Shown here one piece after another: positions 27,901 through 59,615 of a stretch of 64,000 nt of DNA. Every line of letters starts with the position of its first letter. The stretch's first letter is position 1. The position numbers and the translations under genes are program-made. A model generated the notes under the pieces. The model was not told where the DNA came from and did not search any database. It saw nothing but the letters and a program-made list of their open reading frames with translations. Source of the stretch: Flavobacteriales bacterium (GTDB lineage: Bacteria; Bacteroidota; Bacteroidia; Flavobacteriales_E; Vicingaceae); NCBI GenBank assembly GCA_002706365.1, contig PALM01000018.1:1-64000 (forward strand). The letters run 5' to 3'.

Positions 27901-28303
27901 GTTGCCATGAGTTTGCGCCATCAAATGACTCATAAACACCACCACCTTGTCCACCAGCTAAAAGGTGATTAGGATTATTTCTATCGATTACTATTGCACG
28001 AGTTCTTCCGCCGACATCATCCGGACCTTTGAATGTCCAATTGATTCCCAACGCAGTCTTTGAAGACGGCATTCTATCAACATGTTGTTTTGCTCTTATA
28101 ACATCATTAGGATCAACAGTTCCAGTTTGACGATTGGCCTTAACCATATCGATATATTCCAAATAACCATTTGCTAGAGAAGGGCTATTGAATTGAGTTT
28201 GTCTTGGAAAGTAGGTTGGTTCTGATGTTTCCCAAAAGCTAAAAAACGATACTCCTAGGAAAAAAGCTACTAATGCAAAAAGGGTAAACCTCTTGACTAT
28301 CAT
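24968..28303 (-). CDS. Large secreted protein with sialidase/BNR-like propeller repeats and type IX sorting tail
   Basis: The 1,111-residue protein has an N-terminal hydrophobic signal (RFTLFALVAFFLGVSFFSFW). Residues 90-560 contain repeated blocks like GGRTRAIVIDRNNPNHLLAGGQGGGVYESFDGANSW, IYVAANHGFRVIEKQGG and VYTSTDGMQNW with Asp-box (SxDxGxxW-like) patterns found in sialidase and VPS10-type propellers. A second group lies at about 830-1020. The C-terminus (LKIYPNPVKDVAKVEF, RIQVYSLNGRLVLDEQY, NGTYIIRAISG, NKLLIYR) is a type A Por sorting domain. It is probably a surface or released protein. The propeller fold does not by itself imply sialidase activity; no catalytic set was identified. 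Confidence 0.85.
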   Translation of the reverse strand: MIVKRFTLFALVAFFLGVSFFSFWETSEPTYFPRQTQFNSPSLANGYLEYIDMVKANRQTGTVDPNDVIRAKQHVDRMPSSKTALGINWTFKGPDDVGGRTRAIVIDRNNPNHLLAGGQGGGVYESFDGANSWQPYDPSFSVMGISCITQDAAGDFYIGTGGHFDALSGGGVANDDKNRGTKFIGSGVYKLTGNGNYELIVGPNPNFNTIALDWSTIGSIVADPNTPEKIYVAANHGFRVIEKQGGNWVDSDPIGYNAKCLDVEVSANGNALVTYRSLNNNDQARVYTSTDGMQNWTLSQFNAGRIDGVIAPSNQNVMYLSAAANSGCLHNIYRSRDAGATWDIIGPGGASSFQPFSNSITCQGYWDNLIAVSPSDAGKLFIGGITLWTWEQSSVDPAPANGSWRRIDVTIEFINGFLDPRYVHSDKHRMVFDPTDSNIAYITSDGGVAKSTNILDIQPTYLASNFNFNTSQYYNISVNSNDIVLGGTQDNGSHLIGLQYNSNKSGLEVQGGDGFGSELSSINPEIGVATLYFNFFRRIQGIGTTLGNTNISRADIISNNVFFGGLCSGNSCQGPFYSVVELWESFYHEGTRDVVEVRFDRGDLPPVPQDTIFEFEGNNNGYLQYDTLAADSFPYDTLVTWIDTLSLTYEAASDNRLVANFDTIVFDTVNRQIAVLRRNLPDTLINYSVNTTYAVANEVTTAVDTNVNANYDDIDTRIKVSANGESITVYEPRILFRYRFEFTDYVQSIFASANWPGLTGTINTNQRNIIITRDLLKNSPDMKWFNIAGPNSSPDPIDDFNTVLTMEFTRDGNHLFVGTSRGDVYRISDIDSVFFPEINASTGGNLYSIQNGILAGKCRKIGRFTGRAVTDISVDPNNPNHVAVALGNYGNTGFVARTTFALTATDPTSTFTLITGSGNTALPDVPAYSVLIDKNNPNRLILGTDLGIFATSNAFSAAPANVEWYEENIGIGRVPVYDLDQMIFDYNVASNDGKIYAGTHGRGVFETDQFVSVQNLDRKEETEVSFESGLKIYPNPVKDVAKVEFEMAERADVRIQVYSLNGRLVLDEQYANQSEGKNTIQINLDELSNGTYIIRAISGDKVASNKLLIYR

Positions 28304-28431
28304 ACAGATACAATTTTTGAATTAACTACAGTAAAGCTCCACAAGTTACAAATAATATTAAATTGGAAACTCTTTATTAAAAAAATGTGAAATCACTCTA
28401 AAGACAAGCTTAAAGCTAAAAATGTTGCCTC

Positions 28432-29178
28432 TTACTCAACCTTTCTTTCTCCAAAGAAGAATTCTAGGTAAAAATTGACGAAATATGGCTGATTATCAGT
28501 GAATGCCATTAGTGGGATCTCCTCTAAGTATATATCAGTTTTTATTCCTACTTCTATAGAGCGAAGTGCTTCTCTCCTCTGCCCATAATCAAAGTGAAAT
28601 CCAAACTTTCCGAATATCCCTGGATATAAACGCAACTCGTCCATCCCATTCAAGAATGAAGCTCTTCCGTAAATATCTCCCTGATCATGTTTATCTGGAT
28701 CATAACGTCTACTCACTATTATGGTATTATTGGTTCCGGCCTCATCTTCCTGAATATTCAAATAGACTGGTTTTGCAAATCCAAATGAGAATCCGCCATG
28801 TAATACATAAGTCACCGAGACCCCACGTATAGATTGCTTTGGAATGAATACTTTATGATGCCCAATACTCGGTCGTAAAAAATAGAAATAGTTGAGCTTC
28901 CCAAACACATAACCCCTTACATCATTCTCAAATGGGTTAATACTCTTGATCTCCTTAGGATGCTTGATATTGCCAATCTCTACCTCATAGATCCTTTTGC
29001 TAAAGCCAGTGAGGTATTTACCATAGCGAAATGTCCCTACAAATCCATTTGTATGCATACCAATTCCACCTGAAGTCTCATTTGCATAGATAGTAGTGGT
29101 CTCTTCGAAGATCGTCTCCTGCGAACAGATATGCTGAGTCAGAAATAAGAGGATTGATATGGATAATAGTCTTCTCAA
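28432..29178 (-). CDS. Exported hypothetical protein, probable outer-membrane beta-barrel
   Basis: I do not recognise a named family. The 248-residue protein starts at a TTG (29176-29178); no ATG upstream gives a complete signal peptide, whereas this start yields MRRLLSISILLFLTQHICSQ. The mature part has many alternating hydrophobic/polar strands with aromatic ends (YVFGKLNYFYFLRPSIG, VTYVLHGGFSFGFAKP, PYFVNFYLEFFFGE), which suggests a small outer-membrane barrel. A TAnnTTTG box lies 16 bases upstream of the start. It stands alone between the large secreted protein and the divergently transcribed osmC-like gene. Confidence 0.7.
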   Translation of the reverse strand: MRRLLSISILLFLTQHICSQETIFEETTTIYANETSGGIGMHTNGFVGTFRYGKYLTGFSKRIYEVEIGNIKHPKEIKSINPFENDVRGYVFGKLNYFYFLRPSIGHHKVFIPKQSIRGVSVTYVLHGGFSFGFAKPVYLNIQEDEAGTNNTIIVSRRYDPDKHDQGDIYGRASFLNGMDELRLYPGIFGKFGFHFDYGQRREALRSIEVGIKTDIYLEEIPLMAFTDNQPYFVNFYLEFFFGERKVE

Positions 29179-29194
29179 GGGCTTACCTTTATCA

Positions 29195-29202
29195 CAAATT
29201 TA
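29195..29202 (-). promoter_or_regulatory. Candidate -7 box TAnnTTTG upstream of the beta-barrel gene
   Basis: The minus strand reads TAAATTTG, an exact consensus match 16 bp before the TTG start. It supports that unusual start codon. No -33 TTG was found at standard spacing. Confidence 0.45.
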
Positions 29203-29225
29203 AGCATTCAGCCTGTTAATAGAAT

Positions 29226-29627
29226 ATGAATCAGATTCAAGGTAAATATATAGATAACTTAAGATGCGAAATGGTGCATCCTTCGTCTACTGTAATCAGA
29301 ACCGATGCTCCTAAAGACAATCGTGGAGAAGGAAAGTTTTTCTCCCCTACCGACCTGGTAGCTGCAGCATTGGGATCTTGTATGCTAACCATTATTGGAA
29401 TAAGAGCTAGAGATAAAGGAATAAATATTGGCAATCCTGATTTTGAGATCGTGAAGCATATGCAATCAAACCCTAGAAAGATCTCGAAAATTGAGGTGAA
29501 GATTAAATTCTTTTCGGAATTGAATGAGGATGAAAGAGCATATCTTGAAAATGAAGGGAGAAAATGCCCGGTTGCCCTGAGTATCTCAGAAGAGATCGAA
29601 CAAGATATTAGCTTTGAATATGCTTAG
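29226..29627 (+). CDS. OsmC/Ohr-family hydroperoxide-reducing protein
   Basis: This 133-residue protein has the two redox cysteines of the OsmC family: C52 in AALGSCMLTIIG and C114 in GRKCPVALSI. FFSPTDLVAAALG is the characteristic helix leading to the first. Members reduce organic hydroperoxides with thiol partners in the cytoplasm. Its 3' end overlaps the convergent ytxJ gene by 20 bp. The side-by-side position with a bacillithiol-linked protein suggests a small redox-defence neighbourhood, although the two are on opposite strands and not co-transcribed. Confidence 0.88.
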   Translation: MNQIQGKYIDNLRCEMVHPSSTVIRTDAPKDNRGEGKFFSPTDLVAAALGSCMLTIIGIRARDKGINIGNPDFEIVKHMQSNPRKISKIEVKIKFFSELNEDERAYLENEGRKCPVALSISEEIEQDISFEYA

Positions 29628-29946
29628 CTACTGCTGAGCTTGATATCCCAATATGAGACGCATGGTAGGTACTGACGCCATTCTGAAGAAGAATCAATTG
29701 AGGGGATTCATGCTGAATATCGAACTTTTGGGCAATAGTGTTGCTCAACTCCCGATTGGCAAGTAAATCTAAAATGTAGATCGAAATTTTGGGGTTCTTA
29801 GCTTCCCACTGAAGCTCCAACCTTTTCTTGACCATTGCACTTATACCACATCGGGTAGAATGCTTCAAGATAGCTTGAGGATGTTGGTGGGAATCTTCTA
29901 TGATATCATTGAGATCCCCTTCAGAATTTAGGGATCGCCAATTCAT
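29608..29946 (-). CDS. ytxJ: Bacillithiol-system thioredoxin-like protein YtxJ
   Basis: The 112-residue protein has the single-cysteine motif KHSTRCGIS (C33) and a thioredoxin-like core followed by SPQLILLQNG with the cis-Pro. This is the pattern of YtxJ, a monothiol protein thought to act as a bacilliredoxin that removes bacillithiol from proteins. It therefore implies that the organism makes bacillithiol; no synthesis genes are in this window. It starts one base below the stop of a small lipoprotein gene on the same strand, and the two probably share a promoter. Confidence 0.85.
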   Translation of the reverse strand: MNWRSLNSEGDLNDIIEDSHQHPQAILKHSTRCGISAMVKKRLELQWEAKNPKISIYILDLLANRELSNTIAQKFDIQHESPQLILLQNGVSTYHASHIGISSSAVAKHIQS

Positions 29947-30072
29947 CTAGCAAGGCTCTTTTGCAGTTTCAATATCTGCTTTACTGTAAGCAGCGCATCT
30001 TTGGTGTGACTTGCATGAATACAGAGTAGCCACGACAAAAGTAAATGCTAGAATAAGAGTTAGCTTTTTCAT
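29947..30072 (-). CDS. Small lipoprotein of 41 residues
   Basis: A short gene encodes MKKLTLILAFTFVVATLYSC followed by a 21-residue mature tail with Cys, Tyr and Lys residues. LYSC is a lipobox, so Cys20 would be lipidated and the protein membrane-anchored. The stop codon is immediately next to the ytxJ start, and an exact TAnnTTTG box lies 23 bp upstream, which together support it as a real gene. Similar tiny lipoproteins with an RCxAY-type tail are common in Flavobacteriia, but no function is known to me. Confidence 0.75.
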   Translation of the reverse strand: MKKLTLILAFTFVVATLYSCKSHQRCAAYSKADIETAKEPC

Positions 30073-30094
30073 TGGTTTTCTTCTTTCTCGAATA

Positions 30095-30102
30095 CAAATG
30101 TA
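30095..30102 (-). promoter_or_regulatory. Candidate -7 box TAnnTTTG for the small lipoprotein-ytxJ unit
   Basis: The minus strand reads TACATTTG, an exact consensus match 22 bp from the lipoprotein ATG. The -33 region shows no clear TTG. Confidence 0.45.
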
Positions 30103-30178
30103 ATTAAAAGGCTTTTGAATCATTTGATTAATATCATTTTTGTTAACAATAAAATGGTGATAACAGCAGCCTTATAAT

Positions 30179-30862
30179 ATGGTAAATAATGTGACCCCAA
30201 AAATTGAGAGTGGTTGGAAGTCGGTCTTAATGCCGCAGTTTCAAGCTCCATACTTTTCTGAATTAAAAGAAACTTTAATACGTGAGTATGATCAAAAGGT
30301 TGTCTATCCACCTAAGTCTAAGTTATTTGCGGCTTACGACACTACTCCCTTTGACAAAGTTAAAGTGGTAATACTAGGACAAGACCCCTATCATGGTCCT
30401 GGGCAAGCACACGGTTTATGCTTCTCAGTACCACATGGAATACCTCAGCCACCTTCTCTGAAGAATATATTTAAGGAAATAAATAAGGACTTAGGTATTG
30501 AGCTTCCTGATAATGGTAATCTTGAGCATTGGGCAAAACAAGGAGTGTTCTTGCTAAATACCTTCTTGTCGGTTAGAGAAGCCTCTCCTCTATCTCATAG
30601 CAAAATAGGCTGGGAACGCTTTACAGATGCAAGTATTGAAGCACTTTCTGAGCACCGTCAAGGCTTGATATTCTTACTTTGGGGGAGCAATGCCAGAAAA
30701 AAGAAAGATTTGATCGATCTAAATAGACATCATGTACTTGAAAGTGTGCACCCAAGCCCTTTATCTGCTCACCGAGGGTTCTTTGGCTGTGGTCATTTCT
30801 CTAAAACCAATGAATTGCTCAATCAAATGGGAAAAGAGCCAATTGATTGGGAAATAAAATAA
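30179..30862 (+). CDS. ung: Uracil-DNA glycosylase (family 1)
   Basis: The 227-residue enzyme removes uracil from DNA in base-excision repair. It shows the complete family 1 signature: catalytic D69 in GQDPYHGPGQAHG, the Pro-rich loop IPQPPSLKNI, N127 in LLNTFL and catalytic H191 in HPSPLSAHRGFFG. Length is normal. It is a single gene between the divergent small lipoprotein gene and the outer-membrane D15 protein, which starts 21 bp after its stop. Confidence 0.97.
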   Translation: MVNNVTPKIESGWKSVLMPQFQAPYFSELKETLIREYDQKVVYPPKSKLFAAYDTTPFDKVKVVILGQDPYHGPGQAHGLCFSVPHGIPQPPSLKNIFKEINKDLGIELPDNGNLEHWAKQGVFLLNTFLSVREASPLSHSKIGWERFTDASIEALSEHRQGLIFLLWGSNARKKKDLIDLNRHHVLESVHPSPLSAHRGFFGCGHFSKTNELLNQMGKEPIDWEIK

Positions 30863-30883
30863 AATGCAATCTCCTTTGTTTCT

Positions 30884-32617
30884 ATGTCGATGAGATATAC
30901 CATTCTAAGCCTTCTTTTACTGCTATTTAGCAGTTTGAGCGCACAGCGACTTCTCCTGGAAGTGAAAGGTGTGAGTGGTATCGACTTGGATCATCCAAAA
31001 TATGTGAATGATAGTGCTGAAGGAGAGATTATTGCCGATCAATTGATCACTCAACTTCATTCAGCTGCATATCTTGAGGCACAGATTGATAGCAGTTATA
31101 GCAATGGTGGCCGTTTTAGGATAAAGATTGATCAAGGCAAAGAGTACCAATGGGTGAAGCTGAAAGCTTCAAATATGGATGAGTTTGCTATCAATCAAGT
31201 TGATCTGAATGGCAGGCTATTCATGAATAGACCCTTTAATCCTAAACAACTCAACAGGCTTTTTGAAAGGACGGTAAAATTCTATGAGGAAAGAGGGTAT
31301 CCTTTTGCCAGAGTTAAGTTGGATAGTATTGAGATCAGTGATCAAAGGGAGATCAATGCTACTCTTTGGGTTGAAAAGGGCAAATACTATAAGATCGACA
31401 GTTTAAAGATTGAAGGGAATAGCAGAGTTAACGAGACTTTCCTAAAGTCGTACCTCAATATCAATATCGGTGGACCCTACAAAGAATCCGTTGTATCCAA
31501 CATCGACAACCGTATGGATGAGATTCCTTTCCTAAGTGAAGCAAAACCTAAAGAAGTTAGATTCTTCGAAGAGGGCGTAAGCTTGGTGGTATATCCCAAA
31601 AAAAAGAAAGCTAGTCGCTTCGATGGTATCTTGGGCCTACTTACCGAAGAAGAAACAGGAAAGATAGAATTTACGGGTGATGTCGACCTTCTTTTGATCA
31701 ATTCCTTCAACAGAGGAGAACGCATCGGATTCAACTGGAGAAAACTGAAAGGAAACTCAACCGACCTACAATTGGAATTGGGATACCCTTACATTTTCCA
31801 ATCTCAGTTTGGAGTTGACTACAACTTTAAACTCTTTAGAAGAGACACTACCTTCATCGATCTGCAAAATAGATTGGCGTTGAGCTATGCTAAAAGTGCG
31901 AGAAACTACTTTAGTCTGTTCTATGAGCGAAAGACCTCAAGGTTGTTATCGAGAAATGGCTTGAATAGCACCAACATTTCTTCTCTCGGACTAGGTGATG
32001 TTGCGATAAATCTATTTGGCGTTGGCTATAATCTACAGAAGTATAATTACATCTATAATCCTAGAAAGGGATACGGACTTAACTTAGATTTTGGTGTGGG
32101 GTTAAAGGATTTGGAGAAGATCAAGGCCCTGGAAGAAGACAATCCAAACCTTTATGATGGAGTTGAGCTGAGTACAACCCAGTATTCGGGGAATCTCAAA
32201 GTGAATTACTTCATCCCAATCGGAGGCAGGTCTGCTATAATGATCGGCAATCAATCCGCTATCGTGTATTCTGAGAATGTCTATCAAAATGAGCTCCTGC
32301 GATTTGGAGGCTTGAAATTACTTAGAGGTTTTGATGAAGAGGCCTTAACAGGATCTGCCTATAGCTTCATGACGGTTGAGTACCGCTTCATATTGGATAG
32401 GAATTCCTACTTCGCATTATTTTCAGATGGTGGCTACTATGAAAGCAATACTGTTTCCGGCTATAGCAACGATCAACCAATTGGAATTGGTGCAGGGATC
32501 AACTTTGAGACCGGAGCAGGAATCTTCTCTTTCAACTATGCAGTGGGTAAACAAGAAGATACTTCATTCGATCTTCGAGTGGCAAAGATCCACTTTGGTT
32601 TCGTGAACATCTTCTAA
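30884..32617 (+). CDS. Outer-membrane D15/BamA-superfamily protein with POTRA-like domains
   Basis: This 577-residue protein has a signal peptide (RYTILSLLLLLFSSLSA, start ATG at 30884 or 30890). Residues 30-245 contain POTRA-like segments: FNPKQLNRLFERTVKFYEERGYPFARVKLDSIEI and YKIDSLKIEGNSRVNETFLKSYLNIN are clear. The rest is strand-rich with a surface-antigen end (LLRGFDEEALTGSAYSFMTVEYRFILD, AGINFETGAGIFSFNYAVG, KIHFGFVNIF) that finishes in an aromatic residue, as in D15 barrels. It is shorter than BamA and has fewer POTRA units, so a TamA-like or other translocation role is more likely than the essential BamA. Confidence 0.83.
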   Translation: MSMRYTILSLLLLLFSSLSAQRLLLEVKGVSGIDLDHPKYVNDSAEGEIIADQLITQLHSAAYLEAQIDSSYSNGGRFRIKIDQGKEYQWVKLKASNMDEFAINQVDLNGRLFMNRPFNPKQLNRLFERTVKFYEERGYPFARVKLDSIEISDQREINATLWVEKGKYYKIDSLKIEGNSRVNETFLKSYLNINIGGPYKESVVSNIDNRMDEIPFLSEAKPKEVRFFEEGVSLVVYPKKKKASRFDGILGLLTEEETGKIEFTGDVDLLLINSFNRGERIGFNWRKLKGNSTDLQLELGYPYIFQSQFGVDYNFKLFRRDTTFIDLQNRLALSYAKSARNYFSLFYERKTSRLLSRNGLNSTNISSLGLGDVAINLFGVGYNLQKYNYIYNPRKGYGLNLDFGVGLKDLEKIKALEEDNPNLYDGVELSTTQYSGNLKVNYFIPIGGRSAIMIGNQSAIVYSENVYQNELLRFGGLKLLRGFDEEALTGSAYSFMTVEYRFILDRNSYFALFSDGGYYESNTVSGYSNDQPIGIGAGINFETGAGIFSFNYAVGKQEDTSFDLRVAKIHFGFVNIF

Positions 32618-35261: not shown

Positions 35262-35268
35262 TGGAGCC

Positions 35269-35331
35269 GGGAGTTGGGAGCTGGGAGCTGGGAGCTGGGA
35301 TGAAGGAGAAAAGATGAAGGAGAAAGGAGAA
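35269..35331. repeat. Heptanucleotide array, 9 units
   Basis: Nine contiguous 7-mers in strict register: GGGAGTT, GGGAGCT three times, GGGATGA, AGGAGAA, AAGATGA, AGGAGAA, AGGAGAA. The register is kept although the unit sequence changes midway. Confidence 0.9.
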
Positions 35332-44107: not shown

Positions 44108-44117
44108 ATTTTTTTTT

Positions 44118-44152
44118 GAAGCTTGAGGCATGAAGCTTGAAGCTAGAAGACA
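44118..44152. repeat. Heptanucleotide array, 5 units
   Basis: Units GAAGCTT, GAGGCAT, GAAGCTT, GAAGCTA, GAAGACA directly upstream of the amn start; an ATG inside it creates a false N-terminal extension of amn. Confidence 0.85.
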
Positions 44153-44307: not shown

Positions 44308-44369
44308 TTCACATTTCATATCTCACATTTCAAATTTATTTTTCCGATTTCTGATCTCAGATTTCTGAT
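44308..44369. repeat. Heptanucleotide arrays, 8 units in two blocks
   Basis: Block 1: TTCACAT, TTCATAT, CTCACAT, TTCAAAT (44308-44335). Block 2: TTCCGAT, TTCTGAT, CTCAGAT, TTCTGAT (44342-44369). A six-base spacer separates the blocks. Confidence 0.9.
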
Positions 44370-44413
44370 TTGTATTATGTCTTTACTATTTCGTCTTTGT
44401 TTTCCATTTTATT

Positions 44414-44448: not shown

Positions 44449-44554
44449 TTTTTTGATTGTTATGAGATCTGCGAAAATCTGCGAGATCTGCGGGAAACCA
44501 AAAAAAGGTCTTTCTCCCACTGATTACGCTAATTAACACAGATTACTCTTAAAA

Positions 44555-44596
44555 CTAAGAACCTAGCTCTAATATCTAAACTCTAAGCTCTAAAAT
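44555..44596. repeat. Heptanucleotide array, 6 units, ending at a stop codon
   Basis: Units CTAAGAA, CCTAGCT, CTAATAT, CTAAACT, CTAAGCT, CTAAAAT. The next three bases, CTA, are the minus-strand stop codon of the second S46 gene and would be the start of a seventh unit. Confidence 0.9.
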
Positions 44597-46723
44597 CTAC
44601 TTGGCCACAAGTTCCATCTCATCAATCAGCCTCTGCGCTCCGGCAAACTTATCCACTACCCATAAGACGTAACGAATGTCTACAGAGATGTTTCTGCACA
44701 AATTGATATCGTAGTTGATGTCGCTCATAGTTCCTTCCCAGTTTCTGTCGAAATTGAGTCCGATCAGCTGTCCTTTGGCGTTGATCACAGGGCTTCCCGA
44801 GTTTCCTCCTGTAGTATGATTGGATGCAATAAAACATACTCTCATACTGCCATCCTTATCGGCATAATCACCATAGTCGCTATTCTGGATCAATTCCACC
44901 AAACGCTCTGGAAGATCGAAATCCACATTTGTAGGGTCGTACTTTTCCAAAATACCATTGGTTGTAGTAAAGAAGTCGTACTCCACCCCATCTCTAGGAT
45001 CGTAATCTTCTACCTTGCCGTATGCCAGACGGAGTGTTGAATTCGCATTCGGATAGTACTTGCCGTCCACGTATTTACGCATCCCTTCCACATACAAACC
45101 ATAAAGCGAATCCAATCGATGATCCAATGAATCATAGTCTGGTTTGATCATTTCATAATAGACATCCCAGAATTGCTTCATGTAAACGAAGGCCTTATCA
45201 TTTTGAAGTGCAATGATCTCTTCTGTTTTCCCTGAATCGATCAATTGCGTTAAAGCTTCTCGGTCATTGAAAAGAGAGTTAGCATATAGATCGCTAACCA
45301 AGGCACCCATATCATCGCTATTAGATAAGAATTCAGGAAGGAAGTCGCCCTTCATATCTCTTTTGTAGATCTGCATCAGCTCAATGGCAATCAGACTATC
45401 TGTTGTGGAGTCGAAATCCTTGAAGTGCGACTCAATGCGTTTCTTCATCTTATCCTTCTCATCATCACTTAATTCAAAAGTATCTTCCTTGAACCAAGTT
45501 CTAAATCTTGATGCTAGATTGATGATCTCCAATCTCCGATAAGGTATCTCGATGAAGTAATTCCTCGCCATCGTATATGGCTCAATGGCCGATTGTTCTT
45601 GTTCCAATGCGGCTAGAAGGCCTTCATAATCCGACTGGCCGGCAACAGCCTTTCGATAAGCAGCTTCTTCCTTTTCCTTTTTGCCGATGGCATTTGAAGC
45701 TTGTAAACCTCTATTCTCACCAATCCATTTCTTCCAATAATTGCTGGCACTCGCATACTTAGAAGCATATTGGATTCTTACTTTATCAGAGGCTTTCATT
45801 TGCTTGTCCATGATCTCCAAAGCAGCCTCACGAACGGCAATTCTAGCTGGATTCAACTCCTCTTTGATGTAGCGGATCGCATCTGAGGTCAAATACTCAT
45901 CTGTAGTTCCCGGAAACCCAAATACCATGGTAAAATCACCTTCTTGAATACCCTTGGTTGAGATGGGTAAATGATGACGAGGCTTGTAAGGAACGTTGTT
46001 TTCAGAGTAGTCCGCCGGAAGATTATTACTATCTGCATAGATGCGGAATAAGCTAAAATCCCCGGTATGACGAGGCCAACTCCAATTGTCGGTATCGCCT
46101 CCAAACTTGCCAATGGCCGAAGGTGGAGCACCTACCATACGCACATCTTTAAAGACCTCGGTAACAAACATATAGTACTCCTTACCATAGTAGAACGGAC
46201 GAATATAGGCTTCATAATGTGTGTCTTCTGTGGCCAAATTGGTTAGTGAGTCCATTCGATTCTTAATGATCTCTTCGCGCTCTTTTCCTGCCAAACCGGC
46301 TAGGTCTTGTAGAATTGCATCCGTTACATCTTCCATGCGGACGATGAAAGTGGCGGTGAGTCCTTCATTATGAAGCTCATCTTTAAGAGACTTTGCCCAA
46401 TAGCCATCAGTGAGGTAATCGTTCTCAACCGATGAATGACTTTGAATGCTTCTATAGCCGCAATGATGGTTAGTGAGGATCAAACCCTGATCAGAAATGA
46501 TCTCTCCAGTGCAAAATCCACCAAAGGAGATCACTGCATCCTTTAAACTCGACTGATTGATACTGTAGATGTCTTCAGCGGAAAGTTTTAAACCCATCGA
46601 CTTCATATCACCTTCTATGCTCTTGAGCAAGATTGGCAACCACATGCCCTCTTTGGCTTGCAGTTGAATTGAGCTTATGCTGATCAATATGGAAAGTGTA
46701 AGGATCTTAATACGAGATTTCAT
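44597..46723 (-). CDS. S46 dipeptidyl-peptidase, DPP11-type
   Basis: The 708-residue peptidase starts at the ATG ending at 46723, which gives the signal peptide MKSRIKILTLSILISISSIQLQA; a longer upstream frame would bury it. The core has TNHHCGY, GGDTDNWSWPRHTGDF and TGGNSGSP (S642). Eighteen residues beyond the Ser is R660 in FDRNWE, the DPP11 specificity residue that accepts Asp or Glu at P1. It is a divergent paralog of the DPP7-type enzyme at 40861; together they would cover hydrophobic and acidic P1 residues. It is transcribed divergently from the gene at 46790. Confidence 0.93.
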   Translation of the reverse strand: MKSRIKILTLSILISISSIQLQAKEGMWLPILLKSIEGDMKSMGLKLSAEDIYSINQSSLKDAVISFGGFCTGEIISDQGLILTNHHCGYRSIQSHSSVENDYLTDGYWAKSLKDELHNEGLTATFIVRMEDVTDAILQDLAGLAGKEREEIIKNRMDSLTNLATEDTHYEAYIRPFYYGKEYYMFVTEVFKDVRMVGAPPSAIGKFGGDTDNWSWPRHTGDFSLFRIYADSNNLPADYSENNVPYKPRHHLPISTKGIQEGDFTMVFGFPGTTDEYLTSDAIRYIKEELNPARIAVREAALEIMDKQMKASDKVRIQYASKYASASNYWKKWIGENRGLQASNAIGKKEKEEAAYRKAVAGQSDYEGLLAALEQEQSAIEPYTMARNYFIEIPYRRLEIINLASRFRTWFKEDTFELSDDEKDKMKKRIESHFKDFDSTTDSLIAIELMQIYKRDMKGDFLPEFLSNSDDMGALVSDLYANSLFNDREALTQLIDSGKTEEIIALQNDKAFVYMKQFWDVYYEMIKPDYDSLDHRLDSLYGLYVEGMRKYVDGKYYPNANSTLRLAYGKVEDYDPRDGVEYDFFTTTNGILEKYDPTNVDFDLPERLVELIQNSDYGDYADKDGSMRVCFIASNHTTGGNSGSPVINAKGQLIGLNFDRNWEGTMSDINYDINLCRNISVDIRYVLWVVDKFAGAQRLIDEMELVAK

Positions 46724-46789: not shown

Positions 46790-47821
46790 ATGAAGACCGA
46801 CAAAACTTTTCTTTCCTATCATCAAATTGCCGATCAAGATGTGGTGGTTGTTGATGGTTTACACCCTCAAAAGACAGTCCTTTCCCATTGGAAAGGAGCC
46901 AATGTGCATGCAGAAGTAGAGGCTGATACCAGCGGAGAGATTGCCATCAATGCCATAGAGAAAGGCTTTCCAGGGGTTGAAGCTCCCTATGTTTCCGCAA
47001 CCCACTTCGATATTGATGGATTTGTAGGGGTTTTCGCGCTTTTTTATCCCGAATTGACCCTAAAATACAAGTCGGCCATGATCGAAATGGCCCGCATAGG
47101 TGATTTTCGGGAGTATTTACCCAAGAATGAGGGTTCAGATCTGGCCTTAAAGCTCTGCTGCTGGATGAATAAGGTGGAAAAAGACATGTTTTACCGTCCC
47201 TTCGAAGAAAAAGACGAGATCAAAAGCTGCGTTCCCAAATTCGAATATTTCCTAAAGATCTTTCCGGATGTGCTGCAGCAAATTGATCAGTATAAGACCG
47301 ACTGGGAAGCAGAGTATATGCGAGTTAAGGAAGATATGCACTTGCTTCAAGAGGAAGAGAGAGTAAATGAATTGGGACTGATCATCAGAAAGGCAGCTCA
47401 GCCACTGCATTATTACGCACTTTTCTCAGAGACTGAGGGATTGGATATGGTGTTGAGTATTTATCCGAGTAATCGATATGAGTTGGAGTGCAAATACACC
47501 ACCTGGATCGATCTGGCATCCAGGCCAAATTTGCCTAGAGTCGATCTAAGACCCTTGGCAGAGCAATTGAATCAGATCGAAGCAAGCGAACAGATCTGGG
47601 AAGTCGACCGCATCACAGATACCGGTCCGATCTTGAGACTGGAAAGCAAGAAACTCCACAAAGCCGAGCGATATGCTCATCCTTTTGAGAGAGAGATCTA
47701 TGGATCTTCGATTGAAGAAGTTGAATTTGTGAAGTTGGTAAAGGAATTTTTGAAGAAAGGGTTTGAAGGTATAAAGCCTAAACGTTTTTGGACTTGGAAG
47801 GAGATGAAAGCAGGAGCTTAA
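46790..47821 (+). CDS. Conserved hypothetical protein (possibly DUF6687)
   Basis: The 343-residue protein has no signal peptide or membrane helix. The segment SATHFDIDGFVGVFALFYPEL resembles metal- or phosphate-handling motifs with His and Asp pairs, and PLHYYALFSETEGLDMVLSIYPSNRYELECKYTTWIDLASRPNLPRVDL is another conserved-looking block. It may belong to DUF6687, which I cannot confirm. No catalytic role is assigned. The coding statistics and the promoter-like box support a real gene. It is divergent from the DPP11-type peptidase, and its stop is followed within two bases by repeat DNA. Confidence 0.65.
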   Translation: MKTDKTFLSYHQIADQDVVVVDGLHPQKTVLSHWKGANVHAEVEADTSGEIAINAIEKGFPGVEAPYVSATHFDIDGFVGVFALFYPELTLKYKSAMIEMARIGDFREYLPKNEGSDLALKLCCWMNKVEKDMFYRPFEEKDEIKSCVPKFEYFLKIFPDVLQQIDQYKTDWEAEYMRVKEDMHLLQEEERVNELGLIIRKAAQPLHYYALFSETEGLDMVLSIYPSNRYELECKYTTWIDLASRPNLPRVDLRPLAEQLNQIEASEQIWEVDRITDTGPILRLESKKLHKAERYAHPFEREIYGSSIEEVEFVKLVKEFLKKGFEGIKPKRFWTWKEMKAGA

Positions 47822-47888
47822 ACTCTCCGTGAACTCTGAGCCTTCTCAGTGTGCTCTGTGTCAAAAAAACCTAAAGCTGTTTCGCAAA

Positions 47889-47976
47889 GGTTCCCCAAGG
47901 ATTCGCTAGGGTTCACAATGATGGGTATCAAATCTGAATATCTGTAGACTTAAAATCTATTCTCTTCATATTTCCC
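47889..47976. repeat. 88-bp dispersed direct repeat, copy 1
   Basis: Copy 2 is at 49181-49268, the same orientation, 1,292 bp downstream. By my reading the copies differ at three positions only. The homology continues on the left into the CTCTGTG-type repeats. Confidence 0.88.
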
Positions 47977-48048
47977 TGCCGGCAGGCAGGCAGGTTACGC
48001 AGATTCTATTCGCCACTGACTTAGTCGGGGCAGGCAGATTACGCAGAT

Positions 48049-48083
48049 CTTTCATCTTTAATCCTTACTCTTTCATCCTTCGA
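48049..48083. repeat. Heptanucleotide array, 5 units
   Basis: Units CTTTCAT, CTTTAAT, CCTTACT, CTTTCAT, CCTTCGA in register. Confidence 0.8.
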
Positions 48084-48110
48084 AGCTCAACGAGCGTAGA
48101 AGGACATACT

Positions 48111-48160
48111 CCTTACTCCTTTACTCCTTAATCCTTTCTCCTTACTTCGAGCTCCAGACT
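48111..48160. repeat. Heptanucleotide array, 7 units
   Basis: Units CCTTACT, an eight-base CCTTTACT, CCTTAAT, CCTTTCT, CCTTACT, TCGAGCT, CCAGACT, ending 23 bp before the start of the secreted protein gene. Confidence 0.85.
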
Positions 48161-48183
48161 CCAATTTTCGTATCTTACACAAT

Positions 48184-49092
48184 ATGAAAACACTACTACT
48201 CTCTTTCTCACTGATCAGCGTTTTCGTATTAAACGCTCAAACCTCAAGCTATCACGAATTCCCCGATAGCAATGCAGCATGGAACTACAATTTCCAATTG
48301 AATTGCTTTGCGAATGGTACAGCCGATGAGTCATACTCGATCATGATCTCAGGAGATACCACTATTAATAACACCACTTATAAAAAGCTTTCAATCCCCT
48401 ATTTGCAGTCGCAATCTACAGGAACATGCGGAGCTTATGCTATTGGATACAAAGGAGCGATTCGAGAGGATGTGCAGGCTAAAAAGATCTACATTGTAGC
48501 TCCTGCAAGCAATTCTGAAGAGCTTCTTTACGACTTCAATTTAGCAGTTGGTGATACGTTAAAAGGCTATCTAGAGAGCCCGATAGGTGTTGATGTGATA
48601 CAGTCGGTCGATTCTATACTAGTAGGTAGTTCATTCCGTAAAAGATGGGAGGTCAATAGCTGCTATAATATCTACTTTATTGAAGGAATAGGCTCAACTT
48701 ATGGATTGATTGAACCTTCCCCAGGCTGTGTGTCTGACTTGCCTGATTTCTCGCTCATTTGTTTTCAGGAAAATGGAAGATCTCTGCTTCCTGATACTAC
48801 TTCAAGCTGTAATCTAATCACTTCTCTTCAAGAGCAAAGAGCTAAGGTGAAGACCACTTTCTACCCTAATCCCTTTTCAACTTATAGCAAACTTCAGTTT
48901 GATCGGAATCTTCTAAATGCCAGTCTGAGCATCACTGATCTAAATGGCAAATTGGTGAAACGAATTGAGAATATCAATGGCGATAATTATACTTTCTATG
49001 CAAATGAGCTTAGTGAGGGAGTCTATATTGCCAGAATTGAGGAGAACGGAGATGTGTTATCGACTAAGAAGATTGTGATTTTAGGATTGTAA
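48184..49092 (+). CDS. Secreted protein with type IX sorting tail
   Basis: This 302-residue protein has the signal peptide MKTLLLSFSLISVFVLNAQ and a C-terminal Por tail (TFYPNPFSTYSKLQF, LSITDLNGKLVKRI, LSEGVYIARIEENG, KIVIL). The mature middle part has six or so cysteines and no fold I recognise; similar short cargo proteins occur widely in Bacteroidota. Its upstream region and signal peptide resemble those of the gene at 49358, although the mature proteins differ. No function is assigned. Confidence 0.82.
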   Translation: MKTLLLSFSLISVFVLNAQTSSYHEFPDSNAAWNYNFQLNCFANGTADESYSIMISGDTTINNTTYKKLSIPYLQSQSTGTCGAYAIGYKGAIREDVQAKKIYIVAPASNSEELLYDFNLAVGDTLKGYLESPIGVDVIQSVDSILVGSSFRKRWEVNSCYNIYFIEGIGSTYGLIEPSPGCVSDLPDFSLICFQENGRSLLPDTTSSCNLITSLQEQRAKVKTTFYPNPFSTYSKLQFDRNLLNASLSITDLNGKLVKRIENINGDNYTFYANELSEGVYIARIEENGDVLSTKKIVILGL

Positions 49093-49180
49093 ATGATCCT
49101 GCTTCAGAATACTCTGTGAACTCTGTGCCTTCTCTGTGTTCTCTGTGTCCAAAAAAAGAGAGCCTAAGCTGTTACGAAAA

Positions 49181-49268
49181 GGTTCCCCAAGGATTTGCTA
49201 GGGTTCACAATGATGGGTATCAAATCTGAATATCTGTATACTTAAAATCTATACTCTTCATATTTCCC
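49181..49268. repeat. 88-bp dispersed direct repeat, copy 2
   Basis: It matches 47889-47976 with three differences by my reading (C/T, G/T and T/A changes). Confidence 0.88.
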
Positions 49269-49293
49269 GCAGATCACGCAGACTCACGCAGAT

Positions 49294-49342
49294 CCTTTTT
49301 CCTTATTCCTTCATCTTTCATCCTTAGTCCAAGCTTCTAATT
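49294..49342. repeat. Heptanucleotide array, 7 units
   Basis: Units CCTTTTT, CCTTATT, CCTTCAT, CTTTCAT, CCTTAGT, CCAAGCT, TCTAATT, ending 15 bp before the ATG of the next gene. Confidence 0.85.
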
Positions 49343-49357
49343 CGTATCTTGGACATA

Positions 49358-50842
49358 ATGAAATCACTACTTCTCTCTTTCTTCTTGTTGAGTGTTTTTG
49401 TTTTAAAAGCACAGAGCTTCGACCTATTGTATAATACAACTACCTCACCTGAGGTTATTGGTCTAAGTGAGAAAAGTGGATTCTATGAAGTTCGAGCCTA
49501 TGAGGACTCGGCAGGCACTCGCTTCCCTTTGCTATTGAGGGTGAGTCTTAATGGTGCACTCATTCTCGATAGTCTTGATCTCACTAGACCGGATGAAGTA
49601 CTGATTGATGAATTTTATTATTCACGAGATCATCTTGGAGTCATTCAAACCATTTCGTCGCAAGGTAAAGCCTGCTTTGCAATTGAATTTATCGACACCC
49701 TTTCTGGTTTTTTAGTGCTTCGAAATCTTGTAACAGATACTTCTGAGTACTTTGTTGAACGCGCACGATTGTATGGTGATACACTTTTTGTGGTTGGATC
49801 TTTAAGAAACCCAAATAACTCAATGGATGCCTTTGTGTATCAATGGGACCTACCGAATAATAGAGATACAATTATCAATTTAGGAAATTCTAACCCTAGC
49901 ATAGATCTAGCATCTGATATACTTAAGATATCCGATAAGCTGTATATTTTTAAAACCCGCAATTCAACTGCCAATTGCAACACATTTAATGAAGTATTGA
50001 GGTTTAATCTGGATTTGACACTGGATACAACTGTAGCCATTTGTAATTCAATTTCTAATTCTGCCAATCATTCCAGATACATCATTAGCGCTTTGGAATT
50101 ACCAAATAGCGAGTTTATGATCAGCTCAAGAGCTGAATTTCTGCCCAACCCCAATGCCCCGAACCCTGAACAAATTGGATTTTTTAGATGGGATACTTCT
50201 CTTGTTGAGCAGCAGGCTGTTCTTTTTGGGAAGCATGATTCCGTTGCATTAGAAGCCAATAGGGCTGTTTCCCGGTTTCCTGGTTCTAATTCAGTCTATA
50301 TAGGAGGAACAGAAAACTATGTTGTCAATTCATTCGGTTATGATACCTCTGATTCCTATTATGCAATTACGAGAGCAGATCTCCTAGGAAATGTTATTTG
50401 GACCAAATACTATACGAATAACACATTCCTGCACTTAAGACAAGTACTCGCTACTTCTGATGGAGGTGTTTTATTAGCAGGGACTTCCTATGATGATAAA
50501 ACTGCTGTTGGACAAGAGAAAGACATTTGGATTCTAAAACTTGATAGCAACGGAAATTATCCTCAAACTTCTTCTTTAGGCGAGAGTTTAAGTTATCAAG
50601 CTGAAATTCTCATTTTCCCTAACCCGGTGAAAAATCAGCTCAACATAAGGCAGCTCAATTCGGAAAAAGCATTGGAGCTAGTGCTCTTTGATTCTAATGG
50701 AAGAATCGTCTTAGAATCCATGATTGATAATTCAGATCAAGAAGTCGATGTATCTGGACTTCCTAAAGGAATCTATTTCTACAATATCCGTGAAGCAGCT
50801 AAGCAAAGCAATCTGAAATCAGGAAAGTTGATCATCAAATAA
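49358..50842 (+). CDS. Secreted protein with type IX sorting tail
   Basis: The 494-residue protein starts at ATG 49358 (an in-frame TTG nine bases upstream is less likely), giving MKSLLLSFFLLSVFVLKAQ. The mature part is strand-rich with repeated SDGGVLLAGTSYDD-type and KDIWILKLDSNGNY motifs, which are common in propeller-like secreted proteins of this phylum. The C-terminus (ILIFPNPVKNQLNI, ELVLFDSNGRIVLE, LPKGIYFYNI, SGKLIIK) is a type A Por tail. Upstream DNA and signal peptide are related to those of the gene at 48184. Function unknown. Confidence 0.84.
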   Translation: MKSLLLSFFLLSVFVLKAQSFDLLYNTTTSPEVIGLSEKSGFYEVRAYEDSAGTRFPLLLRVSLNGALILDSLDLTRPDEVLIDEFYYSRDHLGVIQTISSQGKACFAIEFIDTLSGFLVLRNLVTDTSEYFVERARLYGDTLFVVGSLRNPNNSMDAFVYQWDLPNNRDTIINLGNSNPSIDLASDILKISDKLYIFKTRNSTANCNTFNEVLRFNLDLTLDTTVAICNSISNSANHSRYIISALELPNSEFMISSRAEFLPNPNAPNPEQIGFFRWDTSLVEQQAVLFGKHDSVALEANRAVSRFPGSNSVYIGGTENYVVNSFGYDTSDSYYAITRADLLGNVIWTKYYTNNTFLHLRQVLATSDGGVLLAGTSYDDKTAVGQEKDIWILKLDSNGNYPQTSSLGESLSYQAEILIFPNPVKNQLNIRQLNSEKALELVLFDSNGRIVLESMIDNSDQEVDVSGLPKGIYFYNIREAAKQSNLKSGKLIIK

Positions 50843-50873
50843 TTCTGTTTTAAATTCCGACTTCTCCCGTAGA

Positions 50874-50943
50874 TCTTTCTCCTTTCTCCTTTCTCCTTCA
50901 TCCTTACTCCTTTCTCCTTCATCCTTACTCCAAAATCCCATTT
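50874..50943. repeat. Heptanucleotide array, 10 units
   Basis: Units TCTTTCT, CCTTTCT, CCTTTCT, CCTTCAT, CCTTACT, CCTTTCT, CCTTCAT, CCTTACT, CCAAAAT, CCCATTT, in perfect register over 70 bp. It is the longest array in the window and has a repeated higher-order pattern of three (CTTTCT, CTTCAT, CTTACT). Confidence 0.93.
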
Positions 50944-50994
50944 AAAGTTTTCCCGCAGATCACGCAGATTCTATTCGCTGATTATCGCAGATCT

Positions 50995-51043
50995 CTAATA
51001 TCTAAACTCTAACATCTAAAATCTTATCTCCCATTTCCCAATT
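50995..51043. repeat. Heptanucleotide array, 7 units
   Basis: Units CTAATAT, CTAAACT, CTAACAT, CTAAAAT, CTTATCT, CCCATTT, CCCAATT, ending 27 bp before the uvrB ATG. Three units are identical to units in the array at 44555-44596. Confidence 0.9.
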
Positions 51044-51070
51044 ACCTAATTTAGAGGTCCAATTGAAAAA

Positions 51071-53089
51071 ATGAAATTCAACCTACAATCCGACTACAAA
51101 CCCACTGGCGATCAGCCCAATGCCATCAAGCAATTGGTGGAAGGCGTAGAGGCCGGTGATCCGGCGCAGACCTTACTCGGGGTGACCGGTTCCGGTAAGA
51201 CCTTTACCATTGCCAATGTGATCCAACAGACGCAGAGACCTACTTTGGTGCTTTCCCATAACAAGACATTGGCCGCTCAGCTTTACGGAGAGTTCAAGCA
51301 GTTCTTTCCGGATAATGCAGTGGAGTATTTTGTGTCCTACTACGACTACTATCAACCGGAAGCCTATATCCCGGGTAGCGATACTTACATTGAAAAAGAC
51401 CTTTCCATCAATGATGAGATCGAAAAGCTTCGTCTGAGTGCCACTTCTGCCCTACTCTCAGGGAGACGAGATGTGATCGTAGTTTCTTCGGTTTCTTGTA
51501 TTTATGGTATTTCCAATCCTTCCGACTTCAAACAGAATGTCACTCATATCAAGAAAGGACAGCTGATTTCGAGAAATAAATTGTTACATCAATTCGTGGC
51601 GGCGCTTTATTCGAGAAGCTCAACCGAATTCGTAAGAGGTAAGTTCAGGGTGACAGGAGATACAGTCGATATCTTCCCGGCTTATGCCGATATCGCTTAT
51701 CGGATTAGCTTTTTCGGTGATGAAATCGAAGATATCCGTTCATTTGATCCAGGGAATGGAAGTACGATCGAGATCTTCGATAGTCTGAATATCTATCCGG
51801 CCAACATCTTCGTCACTACCAAAGAACGTATGAACGATGCCATTTGGGAGATCCAGCAGGATATGGTGAAGCAGGTTGAGTATTTCAAAGAGATTGGCAA
51901 GCCTCTAGAGGCAAAACGCTTGGAAGAGCGTACGCTTTACGATCTGGAAATGATGAAAGAATTGGGCTATTGTTCAGGCATTGAGAACTATTCTCGCTAT
52001 TTCGATCAGCGTGAGCCGGGTACTAGACCATTCTGCTTGATGGACTATTTCCCAGATGATTATCTATTGGTGGTGGATGAGAGTCATGTGACCGTTTCTC
52101 AAGTCAATGCTATGTATGGTGGCGACAGATCCAGAAAGATCAATCTAGTGGATTATGGATTCCGACTGCCCGCCGCCTTGGATAACCGTCCGCTTAAATT
52201 CGATGAATGGGAAGCGCTCAGAAACCAAACGATTTATGTCAGCGCTACTCCGGCCGACTATGAACTAAGAGAATCTGAAGGAGTCTTGGTAGAGCAGTTG
52301 ATAAGGCCTACAGGCTTATTGGATCCACCTATAGAAGTCAGACCGACAGCCAACCAAGTCGATGATCTAATGGAGGAAATCGCTCAGCGGACAGAAAAAG
52401 ACGAGCGAGTATTGGTGACTACCCTGACCAAGCGAATGGCGGAGGAACTGACCAAATACTTCACGAAGAACAGTATTAAATGTCGTTATATCCACTCCGA
52501 TGTAGACACCTTAGAAAGGGTCGAGATTCTTAGGGATCTAAGACTGGGGAATTTCGATGTCTTGGTAGGAGTGAATCTATTGAGAGAAGGATTGGACCTA
52601 CCAGAAGTCTCTCTAGTAGCAGTGATGGATGCCGATAAGGAAGGATTCTTGCGATCTGGGAGATCATTAACTCAGACTGCAGGTAGAGCTGCCAGAAATA
52701 TCAATGGAAGGGTGATCTTCTATGCAGATACCATCACAGGATCCATGCAGAAGACCATGGATGAGACAGAGAGAAGAAGGGAAAAGCAGATCGCCTATAA
52801 TGAGAAGCATGGACTCACACCCCAGGCGCTCAAGAAAGAAAGATTTACCATACTCTCTCAAACCAAAGTGGCTGATGGCAGCAAAGCTCAGCAGAAATAC
52901 CAAGAAGAGCAGCAGTCGGTAGCAGCAGATCCGGTAGTGGCCTATATGAAACCAGAGCAACTTGAAAAAGCCATCGCTCAAACGAGAAGACAGATGGAGA
53001 AAGCTGCCAAGGATCTTGACTTCATGGAGGCGGCAAGATTGAGGGATGAGATGTTTGAGTTGGAAGCTTTGTTGAAAAAGAAGAAATAG
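51071..53089 (+). CDS. uvrB: Excinuclease ABC subunit B
   Basis: The 672-residue helicase-like protein loads onto damaged DNA with UvrA and recruits UvrC in nucleotide-excision repair. Walker A is GVTGSGKT at 37-44; the beta-hairpin region has YYDYYQPEAYIPGSDTYIEKD, and Walker B is VVDESHVT. RVLVTTLTKRMAEELT, VGVNLLREGLDLPEVSL and QTAGRAARN are helicase motifs. A UVR motif (about 630-667: EKAAKDLDFMEAARLRDEMFELE) ends the protein. Length is normal. It is flanked on both sides by repeat-rich DNA and converges with dinB. Confidence 0.98.
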   Translation: MKFNLQSDYKPTGDQPNAIKQLVEGVEAGDPAQTLLGVTGSGKTFTIANVIQQTQRPTLVLSHNKTLAAQLYGEFKQFFPDNAVEYFVSYYDYYQPEAYIPGSDTYIEKDLSINDEIEKLRLSATSALLSGRRDVIVVSSVSCIYGISNPSDFKQNVTHIKKGQLISRNKLLHQFVAALYSRSSTEFVRGKFRVTGDTVDIFPAYADIAYRISFFGDEIEDIRSFDPGNGSTIEIFDSLNIYPANIFVTTKERMNDAIWEIQQDMVKQVEYFKEIGKPLEAKRLEERTLYDLEMMKELGYCSGIENYSRYFDQREPGTRPFCLMDYFPDDYLLVVDESHVTVSQVNAMYGGDRSRKINLVDYGFRLPAALDNRPLKFDEWEALRNQTIYVSATPADYELRESEGVLVEQLIRPTGLLDPPIEVRPTANQVDDLMEEIAQRTEKDERVLVTTLTKRMAEELTKYFTKNSIKCRYIHSDVDTLERVEILRDLRLGNFDVLVGVNLLREGLDLPEVSLVAVMDADKEGFLRSGRSLTQTAGRAARNINGRVIFYADTITGSMQKTMDETERRREKQIAYNEKHGLTPQALKKERFTILSQTKVADGSKAQQKYQEEQQSVAADPVVAYMKPEQLEKAIAQTRRQMEKAAKDLDFMEAARLRDEMFELEALLKKKK

Positions 53090-53362: not shown

Positions 53363-53397
53363 ATTCGTAATTCGTAATTTGAAATTCGTAATTAGTT
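53363..53397. repeat. Heptanucleotide array, 5 units
   Basis: Units ATTCGTA, ATTCGTA, ATTTGAA, ATTCGTA, ATTAGTT in register. Confidence 0.87.
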
Positions 53398-57902: not shown

Positions 57903-57911
57903 TTTTATTAA

Positions 57912-57956
57912 GAACCTAGAGTCTAGAATCTAGACTCTAAATTCTAGGTTCCAAAA
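57912..57956. terminator. Heptamer array that forms a bidirectional terminator-like hairpin
   Basis: GAACCTAGA (57912-57920) pairs perfectly with TCTAGGTTC (57943-57951); GTCTAGA and TCTAGAC also pair inside. The same DNA reads as heptamers CCTAGAG, TCTAGAA, TCTAGAC, TCTAAAT, TCTAGGT, TCCAAAA (57915-57956). It lies between convergent genes and continues into an A-run, giving T residues on the minus strand. Confidence 0.75.
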
Positions 57957-59580: not shown

Positions 59581-59615
59581 AGAGTCTAGAATCTAGAGCC
59601 TAGAATCTAGATGAA
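59581..59615. repeat. Heptanucleotide array, 5 units
   Basis: Units AGAGTCT, AGAATCT, AGAGCCT, AGAATCT, AGATGAA in register. Confidence 0.85.

Follow-up and report, generated by a model that had tools for sequence, protein, structure and literature searches.

Two neighbouring type IX secretion cargo genes of unrelated families share upstream DNA and a signal peptide in a Flavobacteriales bacterium

Introduction

How do two neighbouring genes come to have similar upstream DNA and similar signal peptides (SPs) when the mature proteins that they encode are unrelated? This question is raised by two genes, here called A and B, in a stretch of 64,000 nucleotides (the window) that is contig C18 of the 3.02-Mb, 47-contig genome of an uncultured Flavobacteriales bacterium. 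The nearest relatives of the uvrB gene in this window are from MAGs named Flavobacteriales (85-86% identity). A first-pass annotation had described a transplanted 5' module of repeats, a TATCTT box and an SP in front of both genes and had suggested that it was an expression and export cassette and a possible route to new secreted proteins. Here, we compare the two copies, the proteins behind them and the corresponding site in relatives.

Results

Genes A and B encode type IX cargo at a variable site

The window contains, in this order, an S46 peptidase gene on the minus strand, a DUF6687 gene (46790-47821), gene A (48184-49092, plus strand, 302 aa), gene B (49358-50842, plus strand, 494 aa) and uvrB (51071-53089). 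The intergenic gaps are 362 nt long before A and 265 nt before B. Both proteins have a C-terminal sorting domain (Por_Secre_tail, residues 227-299 of A and 419-484 of B) that scores above the curated cut-offs of PF18962 (43.7 and 54.7 bits, cut-off 27) and TIGR04183 (43.8 and 48.9, cut-off 23). By this measure, A and B are type IX secretion cargo with a type A tail, each of its own family. The N-terminus of each is predicted to be a Sec signal, with K at position 2, a hydrophobic core, an AQ end and the homology of the mature protein directly after it. Across the 3.0-Mb genome, the type IX sorting domain has 103 matches, of which 96 exceed the cut-off. Type IX cargo genes also adjoin on contig C30 (about 25400-32000; L144, L164 and L155), and two of these are ordinary tandem paralogs.

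We compared the DUF6687-uvrB interval (47822-51070) with loci in relatives (L219, L319-L324 and L329). The site is empty in a genome of the same genus (G001), where the DUF6687 and uvrB genes have an 11-nt overlap. In several relatives, the interval holds a peptidase-like gene that encodes a signal peptide and is about 426 codons long; G026 has in addition a cargo-like gene of 316 aa, and another gene lies there in G021. In the present genome, this variable site has a lineage-specific filling that consists of A, B and their repeat-rich gaps.

Similarity of the two front ends stops with the signal peptide

Alignment of the gaps before A and B, start codon and SP codons included, showed 86% identity over 300 alignment columns with a score of 325, compared to no more than 23 in 200 shuffles. 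This base-by-base alignment bears out that the blocks named earlier occur twice, in the same order and in direct orientation, with a similar SP behind them. All lie on the plus strand. The CTCTGTG repeat block starts 3 nt past the DUF6687 stop codon in copy 1 (47825-47869) and 20 nt past the stop codon of A in copy 2 (49112-49156), and its copies are 89% identical. Then comes a contiguous shared element (47863-47976 and 49155-49268) with 91% identity across 114 nt; its inner 103 nt (the core) have 5 mismatches between copies and are 95% identical. The 5' part of the element is a dispersed AAAGGTTC-type repeat and its 3' half is present only in these two copies. It is followed by CGCAGAT repeats (47977-48050, and in short form 49268-49294) and a heptamer array (48051-48146, from Tandem Repeats Finder and alignment, and 49295-49326). 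Although these arrays are present in both copies, they differ much in length, copy 1 having extra sequence without counterpart in copy 2 (CTGCCGGCAGGCAGG... and CACTGACTTAGTCGGGGC... in the CGCAGAT repeats and CGAAGCTCAACGAGCGTAGAAGGA in the heptamers).

Next to the genes stands the 10-mer TTCGTATCTT, a possible -7 box (48167-48176 and 49341-49350), and then the SP, MKTLLLSFSLISVFVLNAQ in A (48184-48240) and MKSLLLSFFLLSVFVLKAQ in B (49358-49414). From the 10-mer through the SP (48167-48244 compared with 49341-49418) the copies are 77% identical. Along the alignment, identity was 90-97% over the CTCTGTG block and contiguous element, 72-85% over the arrays, TATCTT stretch and SP, and 22% over the first 60 nt past the SP. 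Thus, the likeness ends at the end of the SP. The contiguous elements lie 1,292 nt apart and the SP blocks 1,174 nt apart.

The TATCTT box is in both copies, as had been described. The flavobacterial sigma-A -7 consensus, which is the known Bacteroidetes -7 box, is TAnnTTTG (PMC9723704), and the boxes, which read TATCTTAC and TATCTTGG, agree with its TAnnTT part only. Transcription may start after this putative promoter. The box is so near the ATG that an mRNA starting there would be almost leaderless, and such mRNAs are rare (5.5%) in the same study. Because of the partial fit and this rarity, we do not claim a promoter.

The signal peptides of A and B are the closest pair in the genome

For comparison with the SPs of A and B, we took the 5' ends of another 65 type IX cargo genes from this genome (67 genes in all, 2,211 pairs). 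The A and B SPs are identical at 15 of 19 residues and rank first among all pairs, the next pair having 10 of 19. They also rank first of the 2,211 at the DNA level from -17 to +57 (77%; next 59%). The likeness from -17 to 0 is less informative than it appears because TTCGTATCTT also occurs 12 nt upstream of an unrelated cargo gene on contig C20. Composition-preserving shuffles matched the observed core identity in 9 of 1,000,000 cases. For the 15 residues that A and B share, 7 codons differ and 8 are identical (5.1 expected, P=0.08); this is not significantly above chance, and the SP part is therefore nearly saturated at the DNA level.

A profile made from the two SPs matched just the A and B sites in the genome (E 3.7e-11 and 1.1e-9). 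The earlier observation that the two genes have similar SPs thus holds. The next match (E 0.15) leaves no third copy of the SP in the genome, and the joined element has no third copy there either. Against 100 relatives, the best match of the profile was weak (E 1.7e-4) and identified no donor. We found no shared front end among the 5' ends of the 65 other cargo genes. The first-pass annotation had proposed a search for more copies ahead of other type IX cargo; none was found in the genome, and the front end lacks the further copies before other genes that would mark a mobile or repeated expression-export cassette.

The upstream blocks belong to dispersed intergenic repeats

At no more than 3 mismatches, CTCTGTGnnCTCTGTGnCTTCTCTGTG of the CTCTGTG family had 18 sites in the genome and its reversed-pattern control had 0. 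For AAAGGTTCnnnAAGGnTTnGCTAnGGT of the AAAGGTTC family there were 15 sites, again with 0 in the control. Copies of the CTCTGTG repeat sit between genes of many kinds; on contig C20, a CTCTGTG block followed by ACTTAAAATCT and heptamers lies near genes without such an SP. In the window, lag-7 identity was 0.331 in intergenic DNA and 0.259 in genes. The CTCTGTG, AAAGGTTC, CGCAGAT and heptamer blocks are best read as dispersed repeats of intergenic DNA rather than as a dedicated expression cassette; the proposal of a specific cassette is not supported, since these repeat families are scattered between unrelated genes. Two features are peculiar to the A/B pair and absent from the rest of the genome: the SP and the joined 103-nt core, in particular the 3' half of the core. 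The core had no match beyond short repeat fragments in 100 relatives, including the same-genus genome.

The CTCTGTG unit is often split by a palindrome (e.g. ATCCGCCAGCTGGCGGAT or CCCGACGAAGTCGGGG), after which it continues with CTCTGTGTCC or a similar sequence; the pattern looks as though small palindromes had inserted into the unit. Examples among the 18 sites are L332, L340, L345 and L347 at about 1501. Period-7 arrays with differing units occur in window gaps at 35263-35300, 44116-44149, 44341-44371, 44546-44599, 50875-50931, 50993-51024, 53363-53393, 57911-57947 and 59581-59611. A candidate third cassette copy on contig C30 (35664-35715, minus strand) was rejected; it is the dispersed AAAGGTTC repeat followed by CGCAGAT repeats in the opposite orientation. 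The 5' regions of L177 (contig C20) and L180 (contig C24) have in common a repeat of about 65 nt (AAGTG...CTAA.ACTTCTACGCCA.GGCTTCGAAGTGC) before cargo genes with SPs that are not alike.

The mature proteins belong to separate families

BLASTP returned nothing of note. When SP and tail were left out, comparison of the A and B families with hhalign gave a probability of 0.2% and an E value of 0.3. The type IX tails gave a 99% profile-profile match and are about 21% identical. Each protein has its own orthologs. The A family spans the class (48% identity in G012, 47% in G006, 46% in G010), and the B family has orthologs in G008 (41%), G010 (32%) and G019 (30%). Scanning genome contigs with B returned no relative. 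Single-sequence AlphaFold models of A and B had mean pLDDT values of 36.8 and 38.4, too low for the models to be of use. The mature proteins had been described as unlike, with the proviso that homology detected by sensitive search would make the pair an ordinary gene duplication. The profile-profile comparison detected none, and the description stands.

Orthologs align with A and B from just past the SP: QTSSYHEFPDSN of A with QTTTYHSFPDSN, and QSFDLLY of B with QTFDYLYD. In the SP itself, A has 5-10 residues in common with its own orthologs and B has 4-9, compared to the 15 that A and B have in common. By the hhalign comparison, the homologous mature regions expected of an ordinary tandem duplication are absent. 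Homology that stops at the SP-mature junction, with mature relatives that have other SPs, instead fits a partial 5' duplication or an exchange of SPs. Since the shared front end ends at the SP, the mature domains are unrelated and the two families have different SPs, this is not an ordinary gene duplication.

Discussion

Origin of the shared front end

At least one of the two genes acquired its front end by recombination and not by ordinary gene duplication, and there is good support for recombination as the way in which two cargo families came to share an SP. We think it probable that A and B are unrelated cargo with a homologous front end and that local recombination placed the same SP on two mature domains. 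The comparisons show front ends that are homologous up to a sharp border, mature domains that are unrelated and have orthologs with other SPs, and an A+B block inserted at a variable site; the recombination event itself we infer. Most likely it was a short direct duplication or an unequal exchange through repeat-rich intergenic DNA that ended at the SP-mature junction, and the dispersed repeats are best understood as having provided places to recombine.

The core has 5 mismatches in 103 nt and the box plus SP 17 in 74 (Fisher p=4e-4). With the core so much more alike, it is unlikely that the whole front end was copied in a single recent event. Of the proposed transplanted 5' module, the sharing of an SP and its upstream DNA by unrelated cargo is supported, and the unequal divergence speaks against a single recent transplant. 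Two histories would account for the difference: an old copying followed by homogenisation of the core between the direct copies, or a second copying of the core. The unequal divergence makes later homogenisation, by gene conversion or a second copying, likely. We found no intermediate state in any genome examined, and likeness of the SPs to those of the orthologs did not differ between A and B in a way that would point to the donor. The direct copies at 47825-47976 and 49112-49268 flank gene A; recombination between them is predicted to delete A and to place an intact B behind a hybrid front end.

Export of both proteins from the cytoplasm would go by Sec, with near-equivalent SPs, and each would then use its own C-terminal tail to cross the outer membrane, as PMC12618676 describes for type IX substrates in general.

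Alternative explanations

The likeness might instead have two causes, with only the intergenic DNA duplicated and the SPs convergent because the Sec SPs of this clade draw on few residues. The unequal divergence of core and SP, the near-chance codon identity in the SP (P=0.08), the membership of the upstream blocks in dispersed repeats and the occurrence of TTCGTATCTT before another cargo gene would all fit. We nonetheless consider convergence unlikely. Given the SP column composition of the genome, a match of 15 of 19 has a chance of about 6e-8 per pair and no other pair exceeds 10 of 19. Moreover, A and B adjoin with homologous DNA immediately upstream, and identity tapers through the start codon with no stop ahead of it.

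It is very unlikely that A and B arrived jointly by horizontal transfer with a shared front end made elsewhere. The site is empty in the same genus, the same-genus genome has no close homolog of A or B, and the two as a pair are absent from all relatives searched, as such a transfer would predict. Against it, the intergenic repeats are this genome's own, so that the intergenic DNA at least fits a local origin, and the G+C of A (0.40) and B (0.38) is close to that of the window (0.40).

Slightly less probable again is that the core is a regulatory element kept under selection, with the same control for A and B. Its 95% identity, compared to 77% for the box and SP, could be read this way. However, part of the core is a dispersed repeat, and the core is unmatched in the 100 relatives except for short repeat fragments. 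We also considered and rejected a regulatory RNA in the core, as its stability was not above that of shuffles (z 0.3 and 0.7) and it matched no Rfam family.

A whole-gene tandem duplication followed by divergence of the mature domains past recognition would account for neighbours in the same orientation with alike upstream DNA, SPs and type IX tails, but it is scarcely credible, being already contradicted by the profile comparison, which found no similarity of the mature regions, by the separate ortholog families (41-48% identity), by tails that are only about 21% identical and by the tandem paralogs on contig C30, which have a common upstream region, near-identical mature starts and diverged SPs, the reverse of A and B.

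Significance and comparison with known systems

Our preferred reading, local recombination, makes A and B a clear bacterial case in which an SP and its upstream DNA have a history unlike that of the mature protein, the boundary between the two falling at the SP junction. A common SP and promoter region need not imply gene duplication, and the pair is a concrete locus at which strains may be examined for repeat-mediated exchange of export signals. The suggestion of a general route to new secreted proteins is not supported; it would rest on this single instance, which does not establish one. A broader reading, which we regard as quite unlikely, is that the dispersed repeats of this genus are recombination joints that swap export heads between cargo genes, the direct copies allowing gain or loss of A, or its exchange with B, at an appreciable rate. 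If so, type IX surface proteins would be remodelled from the N-terminal side too.

The vpma and vsp loci of Mycoplasma agalactiae and M. bovis have adjoining surface-protein genes with conserved 5' untranslated regions and signal peptides (PMC2268961). Like A and B, these are neighbours with common 5' regions and SPs and differing mature proteins. By contrast, those genes are a switching family; they have a recombinase (Xer1) and defined recombination sites, and their mature regions are partly common to the members. A and B are two genes from unrelated families at a single site. We do not claim that A and B belong to a switching system; the pair acts like a 5' partial duplication. A gene family of Schistosoma japonicum has a similar core promoter and signal sequence (PMC3434034), but it is eukaryotic with dozens of copies through the genome, while A and B are one local pair in a bacterium.

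Heptamer direct repeats, TAACTGA, occur in intergenic DNA of Beggiatoaceae, Cyanobacteria and some Bacteroidetes (PMC4679880). The heptamers of the window resemble them in being 7-nt direct repeats that are intergenic and often just upstream of start codons; their units, however, vary by array (CTTTCTC, TACTCCT, TCTAAAA, GGAGCTG and others) and none is TAACTGA. Compared with type IX cargo (PF18962, TIGR04183), the tails of A and B are ordinary, and it is the N-terminal export head common to unrelated cargo that is unusual.
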